Assembly (NCBI RefSeq): GCF_004114795.1
Contig: NZ_CP035311.1
Location: 3,348,001 to 3,412,000 of the forward strand
Source: Janthinobacterium sp. 17J80-10
GTDB taxonomy: Bacteria; Pseudomonadota; Gammaproteobacteria; Burkholderiales; Burkholderiaceae_D
Length of the DNA stretch: 64,000 nt
Direction of reading: 5' to 3'
Shown: positions 2,592 to 8,627 of the stretch, piece by piece
Layout: every line of letters begins with the position of its first letter
Numbering within the stretch: the first letter of the stretch is position 1
Program-made: the position numbers and the translations under genes
The notes under the pieces: generated by a model
Seen by the model: only the letters and a program-made list of their open reading frames with translations
The model's database searches: none
What the model was told of the DNA's origin: nothing

Positions 2592-2614
2592 TTCCGTAAG
2601 TCATTGATTTTATT
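2592..2614 (+). promoter_or_regulatory. Candidate regulatory element, copy 1 (TTCCGTAAG-N2-ATTGATTT-N-ATT)
   Basis: The 23 bases here match positions 40337-40359 at 20 of 23 sites with the same spacing. This copy sits just upstream of the -24 element of the sigma-54 promoter of the PEP-CTERM gene. The other copy lies in the upstream region of a large secreted lipoprotein gene. A regulator-binding role is inference. Confidence 0.35.
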
Positions 2615-2616
2615 AC

Positions 2617-2634
2617 TTGGCACACTAACTGCTT
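2617..2634 (+). promoter_or_regulatory. Sigma-54 (-24/-12) promoter of the PEP-CTERM gene
   Basis: The bases TTGGCACACTAACTGCTT have the invariant GG and GC separated by exactly 10 bases and match the TGGCAC...TGC consensus well. The GC is at 2631-2632, so transcription should start near 2643, about 47 bases before the ATG at 2690. PrsR, encoded 4.6 kb downstream, is a sigma-54 activator, and PrsK/PrsR control of PEP-CTERM genes has been proposed and tested in other floc-forming betaproteobacteria. Confidence 0.8.
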
Positions 2635-2689
2635 TATTGTTGCCGAAACAGTAATTTCCAATGCTCACCTTCTTAAAGGGAAGATCAAC

Positions 2690-3427
2690 ATGAAATCGAT
2701 GAAAACTTTGCTGGCTGGCGTCGTACTTCTCGCCTCAGCATCCGCTTTCGCCACCCCTGTCAATCTGGCCGGCGGGGAAAATCCGAATTTGCAACAGGTA
2801 ATCAACAGTCTGTACACCAACGCAGGCACATCGCTGGCACAAGCGCCTAATGTCAACTTGAACCAGTCTGCGGAAATTGGGATTTTCCAGGTTGAAGCTT
2901 CCGGTGGTTCGGTTTCCACCATGATCATTGAAGTGGCTGGCAATGCGGGTACGAACACTTTCGGTATCTATGACATCTACAATCCGACCACCTACCTGCA
3001 ACTGTTCAGCGGTGCTGCTTCCAGCGGCGGTCAGGCACTCTTGAGCGTTAATGACTCTTTTCAGTTTGCCGTCAATTTCGGCACCGGCGTGCAATTTTCC
3101 AGCTCGCTGTTTGGCTACTACCTGGGCACTGCAAATGGTCCGACGTTCTACTCCCAGGCCAGCCTGAATGGCGGCGCTGATCAAATGGTCGCCTTCCAGG
3201 GTGACGGCGACGTAATCAAACTGCCGACCAAGCCTGCTGCCATCTGGGGTTCGTCGAGCTTCATCCTTGCCTGGGAAGACCAGCCGCTGGCAGGTTCCGA
3301 CTACGATTACCAGGACATGGTGGTGTATGTCGAGTCCATCAGTGTTCCGGAACCTGGTTCGCTGGCCCTGCTGGGCCTTGGCCTGGCAGGCCTGGCAGGC
3401 GCTGCACGCCGCAAAAAGCCAGTGTAA
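2690..3427 (+). CDS. PEP-CTERM sorting domain protein, DUF4114-like
   Basis: A 245-aa secreted protein, and the only evident PEP-CTERM substrate in the window. It has an N-terminal signal peptide (MKSMKTLLAGVVLLASASAFA). A low-complexity, Gly/Ser/Asn-rich body contains AWEDQPLAGSDYDYQDMVVYVESI near residues 194-217, as in DUF4114. The C-terminus carries the full sorting signal: VPEPGS at about 219, a hydrophobic helix (LALLGLGLAGLAG) and a basic tail RRKK. XrtA, encoded 17 kb downstream, should cut at PEP and release or attach the protein at the surface. A purine-rich AAAGGGAAGA ribosome site lies before the ATG. It is monocistronic: sigma-54 promoter before, terminator after. Confidence 0.93.
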   Translation: MKSMKTLLAGVVLLASASAFATPVNLAGGENPNLQQVINSLYTNAGTSLAQAPNVNLNQSAEIGIFQVEASGGSVSTMIIEVAGNAGTNTFGIYDIYNPTTYLQLFSGAASSGGQALLSVNDSFQFAVNFGTGVQFSSSLFGYYLGTANGPTFYSQASLNGGADQMVAFQGDGDVIKLPTKPAAIWGSSSFILAWEDQPLAGSDYDYQDMVVYVESISVPEPGSLALLGLGLAGLAGAARRKKPV

Positions 3428-3492
3428 ACAGTCACAAACCGGCAGGAACCAAGGGGACTGACGTCAGGCATCCTTCTTCCTTGTACCAGTAG

Positions 3493-3524
3493 ACCCCGTC
3501 TTTTAAAGAAAGGCGGGGTTTTTT
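3493..3524 (+). terminator. Rho-independent terminator after the PEP-CTERM gene
   Basis: An 11-bp stem (ACCCCGTCTTT with AAAGGCGGGGT, one G-T pair), loop TAAAG, followed directly by five further T. This is a textbook intrinsic terminator 66 bases after the stop codon and isolates the PEP-CTERM gene from the EPS genes downstream. Confidence 0.93.
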
Positions 3525-3740: not shown

Positions 3741-5138
3741 ATGCTAAGAATCTCAAATCACCACGTATCGAAGATCATCTCCGTGTTGTTTCTCGTGGAA
3801 GTTCTTGTCTTGCTCGTGTCCGTCTATCTTGGCACAAGCATCCGTTTCGGCACCGCGCAGACCAGCCTTGCAACGGGGCTCGACCGCGTTCTCTTGCCCG
3901 CAGCAGTCTTTACCGTAACCATGCTCTTCAGCATGAGTGCGCTGGGCATGTATCAGCTGAAGTATCGCGAAGGCCTGCGCAATACGCTCTTGCGCCTGAT
4001 GCCGGCGTTTGCGCTGGGCTTCGGGATCTTGACCCTGCTTTTTTATCTCTTGCCCGACCTGTATTTTGGCCGCGGCATACTGGGCCTGGTCATTCTTATT
4101 TCCGCAGCCGGCATCTTGCTGACACGCGTGCTCATCTTCAAGTCTTCCGAATTTGGCTTGCTCGAGTCACGCCTGATTTTTTTGGGCAGTGGTTCCCTGG
4201 CCAAGGAATGCGGAACCCTGGCCAAACATAATATTGCCTATCACAAGTACCATATCGTCGGCTATGTTCCGGTCGCCGATGAAGACACCTGCATTCCTGC
4301 TTCTGCCCTGCTGCCGGGAGGCGAGTCGCTTGTCGCCTTGGCCGCCAGCCATAACGTCGGGGAAATTATCGTCTCGGTACAGAACCGCAGGGGTGGCAAT
4401 CTACCCATCAAGGATCTGCTCGACTGCAAGCTCAACGGTATCAAGGTAACGGATGCCGCCACTTTCTTTGAGCGGGAAGCTTGCCAGATCCGGGTCGATT
4501 CGCTGCAGCCGAGCTGGCTGGTGTTCGGTACAGGATTCGACCAGAGCTTCCTGCGAGCCTTTTGCAAACGCAGTTTCGACCTGTTTGTCAGCCTGATCAT
4601 CTTTACGGTTTCAATTCCCGCGATGCTGGTCACGACCATCTGCATTTACCTCGAAGATCGGGGCCCCATTCTCTACAAACAGGAACGCGTAGGCAAAGAT
4701 GGCCAGACATACATGGTCCTGAAATTTCGCAGCATGCGCAACGACGCAGAAAAAGCCGGCAAACCGCAATGGGCACAGTCGAACGACCCACGAACCACCC
4801 GTATCGGCAACATCATTCGCAAGCTGCGCATAGACGAATTGCCGCAGATCCTGAACGTATTAAAAGGAGAAATGAGCTTTGTCGGCCCGCGCCCTGAGCG
4901 CCCCTTCTTCGTGCAGCAACTCAATGAACAGATCCCGTACTATAACGTCCGGCATAGCATCAAGCCTGGCATCACCGGCATGGCGCAAGTACGCTATCCC
5001 TACGGCGCCTCGGTGGAAGATGCGGTACAAAAACTGCAGTATGACCTGTACTACGTGAAGAACAACAGCCTGTTCCTTGACATACTGATCCTGATCGATA
5101 CCCTGCAGGTTGTCTTGCTGGGCAAAGGCGCTCGGTGA
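3741..5138 (+). CDS. Initiating sugar transferase, XrtA/PEP-CTERM EPS type
   Basis: A 465-aa polyprenyl-phosphate glycosyl-1-phosphate transferase. The N-terminal half has about four membrane helices and a CoA-binding/NAD-like fold (LIFLGSGSLAKECGTLAK). The C-terminal half is the bacterial sugar transferase domain: KRSFDLFVSLIIF membrane helix, GPILYKQERVGKDG, FKFRSMR-like KFRSMRNDAE, and LRIDELPQILNVLKGEMSFVGPRPERPFFV. It should load the first sugar phosphate onto undecaprenyl phosphate at the inner membrane, starting the EPS repeat unit. The architecture and neighbours match the sugar transferase family specific to PEP-CTERM systems. It leads the run with prsK, 19 bases downstream. Confidence 0.93.
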   Translation: MLRISNHHVSKIISVLFLVEVLVLLVSVYLGTSIRFGTAQTSLATGLDRVLLPAAVFTVTMLFSMSALGMYQLKYREGLRNTLLRLMPAFALGFGILTLLFYLLPDLYFGRGILGLVILISAAGILLTRVLIFKSSEFGLLESRLIFLGSGSLAKECGTLAKHNIAYHKYHIVGYVPVADEDTCIPASALLPGGESLVALAASHNVGEIIVSVQNRRGGNLPIKDLLDCKLNGIKVTDAATFFEREACQIRVDSLQPSWLVFGTGFDQSFLRAFCKRSFDLFVSLIIFTVSIPAMLVTTICIYLEDRGPILYKQERVGKDGQTYMVLKFRSMRNDAEKAGKPQWAQSNDPRTTRIGNIIRKLRIDELPQILNVLKGEMSFVGPRPERPFFVQQLNEQIPYYNVRHSIKPGITGMAQVRYPYGASVEDAVQKLQYDLYYVKNNSLFLDILILIDTLQVVLLGKGAR

Positions 5139-5157: not shown

Positions 5158-7218
5158 ATGCTAACCACGATAGCCGCCTCAAGCTATGCCAGCGCCGCGC
5201 TGGCATTCCTGTTTTTGAGCCTCCTGCTTTTGACAAGCTGGCGTGGCCGCTTGCACGGCATGGCAATCACCACCACCTGCCTGCTGAGCGCAGGATGGGC
5301 AGCGTCTCTGGCCTGGCAAGCAGCGACCGCAGCGCCGTTTTCCCTGCTATCCCAATGCATGGAATTATTGCGCGGAGTGGCCTGGTGCACCTTTCTGTTT
5401 GTACTCTTTAAACCGGCGGCCGGCACGCGATTGCTCGCAGTCGCTAAAAGCAAAAGGTTTTTGGCAGGCATCACAGTCATGGCCGTGCTGTTATTCTTGC
5501 TGCCCAAACTGCCTTATGTTCTGCTTGGACTGACTGCCAACCCACTCGCGCGGGTCGCCATGGCAATTGCAGGCATGCTGCTTGTCGAACAATTGTTCAG
5601 GAACACTCCGCCGCGCGAACGCTGGGGGATCAAATTCGCCTGCCTCGGCATCGGTGGCATGTTCGCTTTCGATTTTTATCTTTACAGCGATGCCATGCTA
5701 TTCCGCCAGATCAATCCTGAAATCTGGGCGGCACGCGGCGGCGTCAATGCGCTCGCCGCGCCCCTGCTGGCAATCTCGGCGGCGCGCAATCCCAAGTGGT
5801 CGCCAGGCATTTCCGTCTCGCGCCGGGTACTCTACAATTCGGCAGCCTTGTTTGGTTCGGCGATCTATCTTCTGGCGATGGCCGCCGCAGGTTACTATCT
5901 GCGTTTTTTCGGTGGCAACTGGGGCAGCGTGGTGCAGGCGGTATTTTTGTCCGGTGCCATGCTCTTGCTGCTTGCCGTGCTGTTTTCCGGCGCTTGCCGC
6001 GCCTGGCTTCGCGTATTCATCAGCAAGCATTTCTACAGCTACGGCTACGATTACCGGGAAGAATGGATGCGTTTTACCCGCACGCTCTCGCGCCAGGGTC
6101 CGGAACTCGGTGAACGCACCATACAAGCTGTTGCAGACCTGGTGGAAAGTCCGGCGGGCGCGCTCTACATCGTGCGCGAGTCCGGGCAATGCGAGCTAGC
6201 CGCCCACTGGAACCTCACTCCGCCGGCAGCAACGGAGTCGGCCGACAGCGAATTCTGCCGCTTCCTGGAAAACAAGGAATGGGTAGTCGACCTTCAGGAA
6301 GAACGCACCGCCCGCACCGGCGATGCCAGCGCCGCCATTCCGCAATGGTTGCGGGAATTCCCGCGTGCCTGGCTGGTCGTCCCGCTCCTATTGCAGGGCA
6401 AGCTGTTCGGATTCATGGTGCTGGCACAACCGCGCAGCCGCGTCGCCCTTAACTGGGAAGTACTGGACCTGCTCAAAATCGCCGGCAGCCAGGCAGCGAG
6501 CTATCTGGCACAGCAGGAAGCGGCCAATGCCTTGATGGTTGCGCGGCAGTTCGAATCGTTCAACCGCATGTCCACCTTCATGGTGCATGACCTGAAAAAT
6601 CTGGTATTCCAGCTCTCGCTGCTGCTGTCGAATGCGGAAAAACACAAAAACAATCCCGCATTCCAGCAAGACATGCTGGAAACCGTCGAACTCTCGGTGC
6701 AAAAAATGAAACTGCTGTTGCAAAAGCTCGCCCGGGGCATCTCGGTCGAAACACCGGCTTCCCTGCAGCTCGAACATTTGCTGCGGCAGGCAATTGCAGC
6801 AAAATCAAGCACAGGCCCCAAGCCGGTACTCGAAGTCGTTGACAGCAAGCTCGCCGTATTTGCCAACCCGGCGCGCCTGGAACGGGTGATTGGCCACCTG
6901 ATCCAGAATGCTATCGAAGCGACCCCCAAGGATGGTAAAGTTAGCGTCATGCTGAAAAGGCATGACGGTTCCGCCGTGGTTCTGGTCAGCGACAATGGCG
7001 CCGGCATGAGTGAAGAATTCGTGCGTGAGAAGCTGTTCAAGCCTTTCGAATCGACCAAGGCGGGCGGCATGGGCATCGGCGTGTTCGAAAGCCGGGAATA
7101 CGTCAATGAACTGGGCGGGCGGCTCGAGGTGGAAAGCATGCCGGGCCATGGCACGACTTTCCGCATCAGCCTGCCGTTGCAGGAAGATGAACGAAGCGCG
7201 GCCGACATGGCGGCGTAA
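5158..7218 (+). CDS. prsK: PEP-CTERM system sensor histidine kinase PrsK
   Basis: A 686-aa membrane sensor kinase. About nine hydrophobic segments fill residues 1-300, a GAF-like domain lies at about 320-465, then a DHp region with the phospho-acceptor His near residue 477 (STFMVHDLKNLVFQLSLLL). The ATPase domain shows the N box NAIEATP near 584, the G1 box DNGAGM near 612, and GGMGIGVFESREYV. This matches the PEP-CTERM histidine kinase family. It should phosphorylate PrsR, encoded 50 bases downstream. The start was set at MLTTIAASS, which places the first membrane helix at the N-terminus; an upstream in-frame start overlaps the previous gene. Confidence 0.94.
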   Translation: MLTTIAASSYASAALAFLFLSLLLLTSWRGRLHGMAITTTCLLSAGWAASLAWQAATAAPFSLLSQCMELLRGVAWCTFLFVLFKPAAGTRLLAVAKSKRFLAGITVMAVLLFLLPKLPYVLLGLTANPLARVAMAIAGMLLVEQLFRNTPPRERWGIKFACLGIGGMFAFDFYLYSDAMLFRQINPEIWAARGGVNALAAPLLAISAARNPKWSPGISVSRRVLYNSAALFGSAIYLLAMAAAGYYLRFFGGNWGSVVQAVFLSGAMLLLLAVLFSGACRAWLRVFISKHFYSYGYDYREEWMRFTRTLSRQGPELGERTIQAVADLVESPAGALYIVRESGQCELAAHWNLTPPAATESADSEFCRFLENKEWVVDLQEERTARTGDASAAIPQWLREFPRAWLVVPLLLQGKLFGFMVLAQPRSRVALNWEVLDLLKIAGSQAASYLAQQEAANALMVARQFESFNRMSTFMVHDLKNLVFQLSLLLSNAEKHKNNPAFQQDMLETVELSVQKMKLLLQKLARGISVETPASLQLEHLLRQAIAAKSSTGPKPVLEVVDSKLAVFANPARLERVIGHLIQNAIEATPKDGKVSVMLKRHDGSAVVLVSDNGAGMSEEFVREKLFKPFESTKAGGMGIGVFESREYVNELGGRLEVESMPGHGTTFRISLPLQEDERSAADMAA

Positions 7219-7268: not shown

Positions 7269-8627
7269 GTGAGTCAAATCAAGAAAAAACTGCTCGTCAT
7301 CGAAGATGACCCCGGCCTGCAAAAGCAATTGCGCTGGAGTTTCGACGCGTATGAAGTACTGGTGGCAGGCGACCGCGAAAGCGCCCTGGCCGAAGTGCGG
7401 CGCCATGAGCCCGCGGTCATCACCATGGATCTGGGCCTGCCGCCCGATCCCGATGGCGCCTCGGAAGGGCTGGCAACCCTGCAGCAGATCCTGGCGCTGA
7501 CGCCAGACGCCAAAGTCATCGTTTTATCCGGCAACCAGGAGCGCACGAATGCAGTCAAGGCGATCGCCATGGGCGCCTACGACTTTCACCAAAAACCCTT
7601 CGAGCCGGAATTGCTCGGACTGGTAATCGAACGTGCCTACTTCCTGCATGCACTTCAGCAGGAAAACCGGCAGCTGTTGCAAACCCAGGGAGACTCCCCC
7701 ATGGGTGGCGTCATCAGCCGCGACCCGGGCCTGCTGAAAGTGTGCCGCAACATCGAAAAAGTCGCGCCCTCCTCGGCCACCGTGATGGTGCTGGGCGAGT
7801 CCGGCACCGGCAAGGAAGTGATGGCACGCGCCCTGCACCAGTTGAGCCCGCGCCGCGACAAGCGCTTCATGGCGATCAATTGCGCCGCCATCCCGGAAAA
7901 CCTGCTGGAAAGCGAACTGTTCGGCTATGAAAAGGGGGCCTTCACCGGCGCCGTCAAGCAAACCATCGGCAAGATCGAACTGGCCAACGAAGGCACGTTC
8001 TTTCTCGATGAAGTAGGCGACTTGCCAATGGCGCTGCAGGCGAAATTGCTGCGCTTCCTGCAGGAGCGCGTGATCGAGCGCATCGGCGGGCACAAGGAAA
8101 TCCCCGTGGACGTGCGCATCGTCTGCGCTACCCACCAGAAGCTCAAGGAATTGACCGCCGCCGGCAAGTTTCGCGAAGACCTGTATTACCGCCTGAGCGA
8201 GATCGTGGTGACGATTCCACCCTTGCGCGACCGTATCGGCGACGCAGCCCTGCTGGCCCACCATTTCAAGAACCGCTTCAGCGAAGCGGAGGGGCGCTCG
8301 CGCCTGAATTTCAGCGCCGATGCCCTGACCATGATCGAAAGCCACGCCTGGCCCGGCAACGTGCGCGAAATGGAAAACTGCATCAAGCGGGCCGTCATCA
8401 TGGCAGACGGCCCGCAAATTACCGCTGACGACCTCGGCCTTGCGGACACTGCTGCGACGGAAGAGCCGATCAACTTGCGCCAGGTGCGTGACGAAGCCGA
8501 ATACAAGGCATTGGTGAAGGTCCTGGCGCGAACCGACGGCAATATCGTCAAGGCCGCCGAAATACTCGGCGTGAGCCGGCCGACCATTTACGACCTGATG
8601 ACGCGCCACGGCCTCAAGCAGGCTTGA
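7269..8627 (+). CDS. prsR: PEP-CTERM system sigma-54 response regulator PrsR
   Basis: A 452-aa NtrC-type regulator starting at GTG. The receiver domain has the phospho-acceptor Asp at about residue 54 (ITMDLGLPPD). The AAA+ domain has Walker A GESGTGKE near 175 and the sigma-54-contacting GAFTGA loop at about 223. The C-terminal Fis-type HTH is NIVKAAEILGVSRPTIYDLMTRHGL. It should activate sigma-54 promoters after phosphorylation by PrsK. The sigma-54 promoter at 2617-2634 before the PEP-CTERM gene is the obvious local target. Confidence 0.95.
   Translation: MSQIKKKLLVIEDDPGLQKQLRWSFDAYEVLVAGDRESALAEVRRHEPAVITMDLGLPPDPDGASEGLATLQQILALTPDAKVIVLSGNQERTNAVKAIAMGAYDFHQKPFEPELLGLVIERAYFLHALQQENRQLLQTQGDSPMGGVISRDPGLLKVCRNIEKVAPSSATVMVLGESGTGKEVMARALHQLSPRRDKRFMAINCAAIPENLLESELFGYEKGAFTGAVKQTIGKIELANEGTFFLDEVGDLPMALQAKLLRFLQERVIERIGGHKEIPVDVRIVCATHQKLKELTAAGKFREDLYYRLSEIVVTIPPLRDRIGDAALLAHHFKNRFSEAEGRSRLNFSADALTMIESHAWPGNVREMENCIKRAVIMADGPQITADDLGLADTAATEEPINLRQVRDEAEYKALVKVLARTDGNIVKAAEILGVSRPTIYDLMTRHGLKQA

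Follow-up and report, generated by a model that had tools for sequence, protein, structure and literature searches.

The PEP-CTERM gene at positions 2690 to 3427 of this locus lies just upstream of genes for a two-component system of the kind associated with such proteins, and the question that it raises is how its expression is switched on. The window, by which we mean the whole 64,000-nucleotide stretch of the Janthinobacterium sp. 17J80-10 genome that was analyzed, carries this gene, its promoter elements and terminator, and the prs genes downstream on its forward strand. The gene encodes a surface protein of 245 amino acids with a signal peptide (recognized by eye), a DUF4114 domain, and a C-terminal VPEP sorting tag. 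Profile searches placed the tag above cut-off with both PF07589 (31.6 bits; cut-off, 20.7) and TIGR02595 (25.8 bits) and the domain above the gathering cut-off of PF13448 (32.1 bits; cut-off, 27), making the product a DUF4114 PEP-CTERM protein. With the floc_PepA profile (NF033554) it scored 22.7 bits against a curated cut-off of 80, and we rejected that identity; the protein may work like PepA though it is not filed as PepA. Its distribution is patchy, with a match in 5 of 195 family genomes, from two genera, and a protein search of genome contigs found one distant locus only; the promoter type described below is widespread. A Shine-Dalgarno-like sequence (AAGGGAAG) precedes the ATG at 2690. 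In one relative (G084; L201:6490), the interval from the nucleotidyltransferase gene to epsB, where the 2690 gene would stand, is occupied by a different PEP-CTERM gene, which has a PrsR-type promoter of its own with a spacing of 94.

Downstream lie genes for an XrtA-system sugar transferase of the EpsB2 type (3741 to 5138; TIGR03013, 584.9 bits; cut-off, 393), the sensor kinase PrsK (5158 to 7218; TIGR02916, 848.4 bits; cut-off, 300), and the sigma-54-dependent response regulator PrsR, the probable activator (7269 to 8627; TIGR02915, 753.4 bits; cut-off, 502.6), which has a receiver domain, an AAA+ domain with the GAFTGA motif, and a Fis-type helix-turn-helix. Thus, the PrsK and GAFTGA-bearing PrsR that an earlier note had recognized from their sequences are identified by scores far above the cut-offs, and rpoN is also present in the genome (468.5 bits), completing the set of PrsK, PrsR, and RpoN expected of a Haft-type system. 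The same note had proposed that PrsR and RpoN turn on the 2690 gene separately from the EPS operon.

Direct reading bore out the -24/-12 element on which that proposal was built. A near-consensus TTGGCAC-N5-CTGCTT, within TTGGCACACTAACTGCTTT, has its GG at 2619 to 2620 and its GC at 2631 to 2632, so that the candidate sigma-54 promoter (TGGCACACTAACTGCTTT; 2618 to 2635) has the GG-N10-GC form, lies 55 to 73 bases 5' of the ATG, and is conserved in orthologues; the predicted transcription start is at 2643 to 2644, 12 nucleotides past the -12 element. Taken by itself, the sigma-54 half carries little weight, because TTGGCAC-N6-TGC matched the genome 16 times, compared with 6 times for the reversed control, and we rejected the pattern in isolation as too common. 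The element does not begin at 2592, as had been stated, but at 2560, since the earlier note overlooked the activator box at 2560 to 2576; it also overlooked a consensus IHF site at 2597 to 2609. Haft and coworkers predicted PrsR/sigma-54 control of PEP-CTERM genes in 2006, and the promoter that they published consists of a 17-nucleotide box with TTTACA as its last six bases, the presumed binding site of PrsR, followed by a -24/-12 element (PMC1569441). The sequence TGTCAGGTTTTTTTACA at 2560 to 2576 has this form (TGTC-N7-TTTACA) and is the putative enhancer. It is separated from the promoter by ~41 nucleotides, which falls within the published range of 32 to 92, and the promoter stands ~55 nucleotides from the ATG, within the range of 23 to 221 given there (PMC1569441); a single PEP-CTERM gene follows and then a terminator.

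To score the composite, we combined matrices for the PrsR box and the sigma-54 element that were trained on other genomes only; these matrices are stricter than nature, because their training sites were chosen by exact pattern. The site at 2560 to 2632 scored 38.3. Counting against the assignment, its box begins with TGTCA in place of the TGTCG of the family consensus, and the spacing class to which it belongs, 73, is an uncommon one. The next-best place in the window scored 10.4, and the best score over ten simulated windows was 13.8. Matrix scoring found no second composite site in the 64-kb window, which also holds the XrtA-type EPS genes, and this supports a switch separate from the EPS operon.

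Whether PrsR is the cognate activator was addressed by comparison across the family. A loose composite (any TGTC box plus GG-N10-GC) gave many matches that looked like coding sequence, and it was therefore tightened to TGTCG plus TGGCA. The resulting strict pattern, TGTCG-N6-TTTACA-N39..69-TGGCA-N8-GC, matched 56 of 195 family genomes, with zero matches for the reversed control, and a longer gap added five genomes. PrsR scored above its cut-off in 59 of these 61 site-bearing genomes, and the full partition (both, 59; site only, 2; PrsR only, 20; neither, 114) gave a Fisher p of ~7e-30. All 195 genomes have related sigma-54 activators, and therefore the link of the site is to PrsR specifically. 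This bears on the suggestion that another of the several NtrC-like enhancer-binding proteins activates the promoter and that PrsR is nearby through operon history only. Seven other places in the genome do give matches to the PrsR profile that fall short of its cut-off, as is usual for other sigma-54 activators, but the box does not co-occur with sigma-54 activators generally (a strict site was present in only 2 of 116 genomes without PrsR), and dependence of PEP-CTERM genes on PrsK/PrsR has been reported for Zoogloea (PMC9012009). We therefore consider a different activator very unlikely. Twenty PrsR-bearing genomes (G005, G089, G140, and G156, for example) have no strict site; therefore, the box may vary or drift, or PrsR may have other targets. 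Among 80 sampled sites from 52 genomes, 75 preceded an open reading frame whose final 35 residues include PEP, compared with 2.2% of 2,000 random positions subjected to the same test; of the five exceptions, one was truncated at the edge of its contig and another lay in coding sequence.

Between the box and the promoter lies the third element, TAAGTCATTGATT (YAANNNNTTGATW; 2597 to 2609), which matches the IHF consensus at 9/9 positions when read on the other strand and stands 20 nucleotides past the PrsR box and 8 nucleotides 5' of the TGG, an IHF consensus thus falling between enhancer and -24 as at IHF-assisted promoters. When the promoters of four pepA orthologues were aligned, the box, the IHF site, and the -24/-12 element were the three retained blocks; the IHF site is conserved in three pepA orthologue promoters. 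Eight or nine of the nine consensus positions were matched in 63 of 79 family spacers (shuffles: mean, 11.3; maximum, 20), and the match was perfect in 26 of the 79 (shuffle mean, 0.7); with one site per genus, the fraction with an IHF match was 78%. The gene himA is present in the genome (154 bits).

The distances in these promoters are also quantized. The 193 box-to-GC lengths fall into narrow peaks at ~73, 84, 95, 106, 116, and 127, with near-empty valleys between them, a step of ~10.7 bp. The Rayleigh nR2 was 125 at 10.5 bp for these 193 sites, which are related promoters and hence not independent, and the best period was ~11. When each of the 16 genera contributed a single site, nR2 was still ~11, so the phasing does not depend on one lineage. 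Forward IHF sites mostly stand 18 to 19 nucleotides before the TGG (8 in the 73 class) and 20 to 21 or 30 to 31 nucleotides after the PrsR box, so that both partial distances likewise change in steps of about one turn; some sites are reverse oriented and stand at a fixed 6 to 7 or 22 nucleotides before the TGG.

These observations make IHF the putative occupant of 2597 to 2609, an assignment that we infer from the sequence. The middle element could instead be bound by some other factor or be an intrinsic bend, the sigma-54 and PrsR parts of the model being right all the same. IHF-like elements in the family prefer TAAGTC over TAANNN, a preference that lies outside the IHF consensus and fits such a reading. 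Against this, the consensus positions fit IHF, the element is found in both orientations, and its A/T-rich flank is usual for IHF; it also occupies the usual place for IHF between enhancer and promoter, where IHF is a standard component of sigma-54 promoters and bends the DNA between activator and polymerase (PMC7962754). We consider it unlikely that the element is something other than an IHF site.

The gene had also been described as isolated, and this holds on its downstream side only. There, the strong terminator that had been claimed is present at 3492 to 3520 as a 13-bp stem with a T run after it (~-19.8 kcal/mol; z of -4.2 against shuffles); a simple terminator scan overlooked it, and folding against shuffles detected the stem. 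Upstream, the lytic transglycosylase gene ends at 2539, and neither the terminator scan nor folding found a terminator between that stop codon and the promoter. Readthrough from the upstream operon could therefore also express the 2690 gene, and in its strongest form this explanation would make readthrough from the HPr-rel-A/transglycosylase operon, or an ordinary sigma-70 promoter, the main source of expression and the sigma-54 site a minor one. However, no sigma-70-like site was found in the interval from 2540 to 2690, and the three blocks are retained in orthologues, including that of G058, in which the gene is on a different contig from prsR and has no EPS neighborhood. Furthermore, the upstream operon is itself under the same kind of promoter, as described below. 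Expression chiefly by either of these routes is thus highly improbable.

The genome as a whole (4.02 Mb, one contig), in which sites were located by pattern searches (matrix scoring covered the 64-kb window), showed how widely this promoter is used. Nine PEP-CTERM genes exceed the TIGR02595 cut-off, so the 2690 gene is the only one in the window, as had been claimed, but not in the genome. A PrsR box and a -24/-12 element precede all nine (the box is degenerate in two), with total lengths of 73, 83, 93, 94, or 95, and each of the nine spacers contains an IHF match at 8 or 9 of 9 positions. The genome-wide look for the same promoter before tagged genes, proposed in the earlier note, thus found it at every one. 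TGTC-N7-TTTACA matched the genome 11 times, seven of them before PEP-CTERM genes. Two other matches (L034 and L036) were rejected as coding sequence, and a third (L031; C1:1221897-1221913), although a good box (TGTCGAATATTTTTACA), was rejected because it has no recognizable -24/-12 element at an allowed distance; the one remaining match (L038), which belongs to the tenth composite site described next, was retained on the strength of its conservation in three relatives. A composite with TTTACA and TGGCA only gave three matches, two of which had no proper box and were taken as chance.

A tenth composite site, with an IHF match, a -24/-12 element, and a total length of 127, lies at C1:3346497-3346623 (L041:10497), 1.5 kb upstream of the window and before the HPr-rel-A operon, and it is kept in three congeners (L199:7213, L200:4395, and L201:9664) with lengths of 127, 127, and 126. 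The operon encodes a Tat-signal SPGYWKNH protein, PqqD_rel_X (TIGR04353), HprK_rel_A (TIGR04352), and a nucleotidyltransferase, and here it also includes the transglycosylase gene that ends at 2539. The SPGYWKNH protein gene (L041:10608-11285) is the first in the operon and is highly conserved across the genus; its product gave no Pfam or NCBIfam match and may be the substrate of the cassette, because genes for a PqqD-like protein, an HprK-like kinase, and a nucleotidyltransferase adjoin it. The HPr-rel-A promoters of all four genomes (L041, L199, L200, and L201) have an invariant palindrome, ATTGTACAAT, in the stretch that separates the IHF site from the -24 element; it was not seen in the pepA promoters and is perhaps the site of a further regulator. 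Because nine PEP-CTERM genes and one operon share the promoter, the 2690 gene has no privileged link to the prsKR pair close to it.

Taken together, the published box at a permitted distance, its co-occurrence with PrsR, and -24 and -12 hexamers identical to those of Aquincola strongly support control of the 2690 gene by PrsR and RpoN, as had been proposed, and we put at roughly 90% the probability that the region from 2560 to 2689 acts as an enhancer-dependent sigma-54 promoter belonging to the PEP-CTERM class and driven by PrsR, IHF, and RpoN. In the mechanism that we envisage, PrsK would phosphorylate PrsR, and phospho-PrsR would bind the 17-nucleotide box at 2560 to 2576; IHF would bind and bend the DNA at 2597 to 2609, letting the PrsR AAA+ ring touch the RpoN-RNA polymerase at 2618 to 2635. 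ATP hydrolysis would then open the promoter, with transcription predicted to start near 2643 to 2644 and to stop at 3492 to 3520. The product would be exported and, after probable cleavage of its VPEP tag by the exosortase (XrtA), would join the extracellular matrix. All nine PEP-CTERM genes would share this switch with the HPr-rel-A operon, and the EPS genes of the window would not be under it. It is also probable that the PEP-CTERM promoters of the family are a rigid three-part module built in whole turns, which would define a genome-wide PrsR regulon that includes the HPr-rel-A cassette with its SPGYWKNH protein and so link that cassette to matrix-protein expression. With IHF, helical phasing, and the shared promoter, a loose two-motif description becomes a sharp, testable signature, from which the PrsR regulon of a genome can be listed by sequence and cosignalled surface and matrix proteins can be picked out, with relevance to biofilms and to floc formation in activated sludge; for the HPr-rel-A cassette, it is a first regulatory clue.

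The basic promoter model has already been published, and what is added here is an architecture of three helically phased parts, together with a further predicted target, the HPr-rel-A operon; we found no mention of an IHF site or of phasing for PEP-CTERM promoters in the open-licence literature. The system of Haft et al., which comprises PrsK, PrsR, and PrsT, has the same order of box, -24 (GG)/-12 (GC), and PEP-CTERM gene at ~55 to 70 nucleotides and the same prsK/prsR tandem beside EPS genes. It differs in that the window box starts with TGTCA and in that the spacer is given as 62.8 ± 10.6 nucleotides, with no IHF site or stepwise phasing in the available part of the paper (PMC1569441). The pepA gene of Aquincola tertiaricarbonis RN12 was shown by primer extension and RT-PCR to be RpoN1 dependent, and it shares with the 2690 gene the identical -24 TGGCAC and -12 CTGCTT, which primer extension mapped there, a stem-loop terminator after the gene, and an epsB2-prsK-prsR locus (PMC9850573). 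In that organism, however, pepA lies before prsT and away from prsKR, whereas the window gene lies directly before epsB-prsK-prsR and its product falls below the floc_PepA cut-off; plasmid-borne prsK or prsKR failed to restore flocculation there (PMC9850573), an observation that speaks against the model. Classical IHF-assisted sigma-54 promoters, such as those of nif genes, have the same order of enhancer, IHF site, and -24/-12 element (PMC7962754), whereas the promoters described here differ from them in their putative activator, PrsR, in the sequence of their box, and in distances quantized by the helical turn into six classes.
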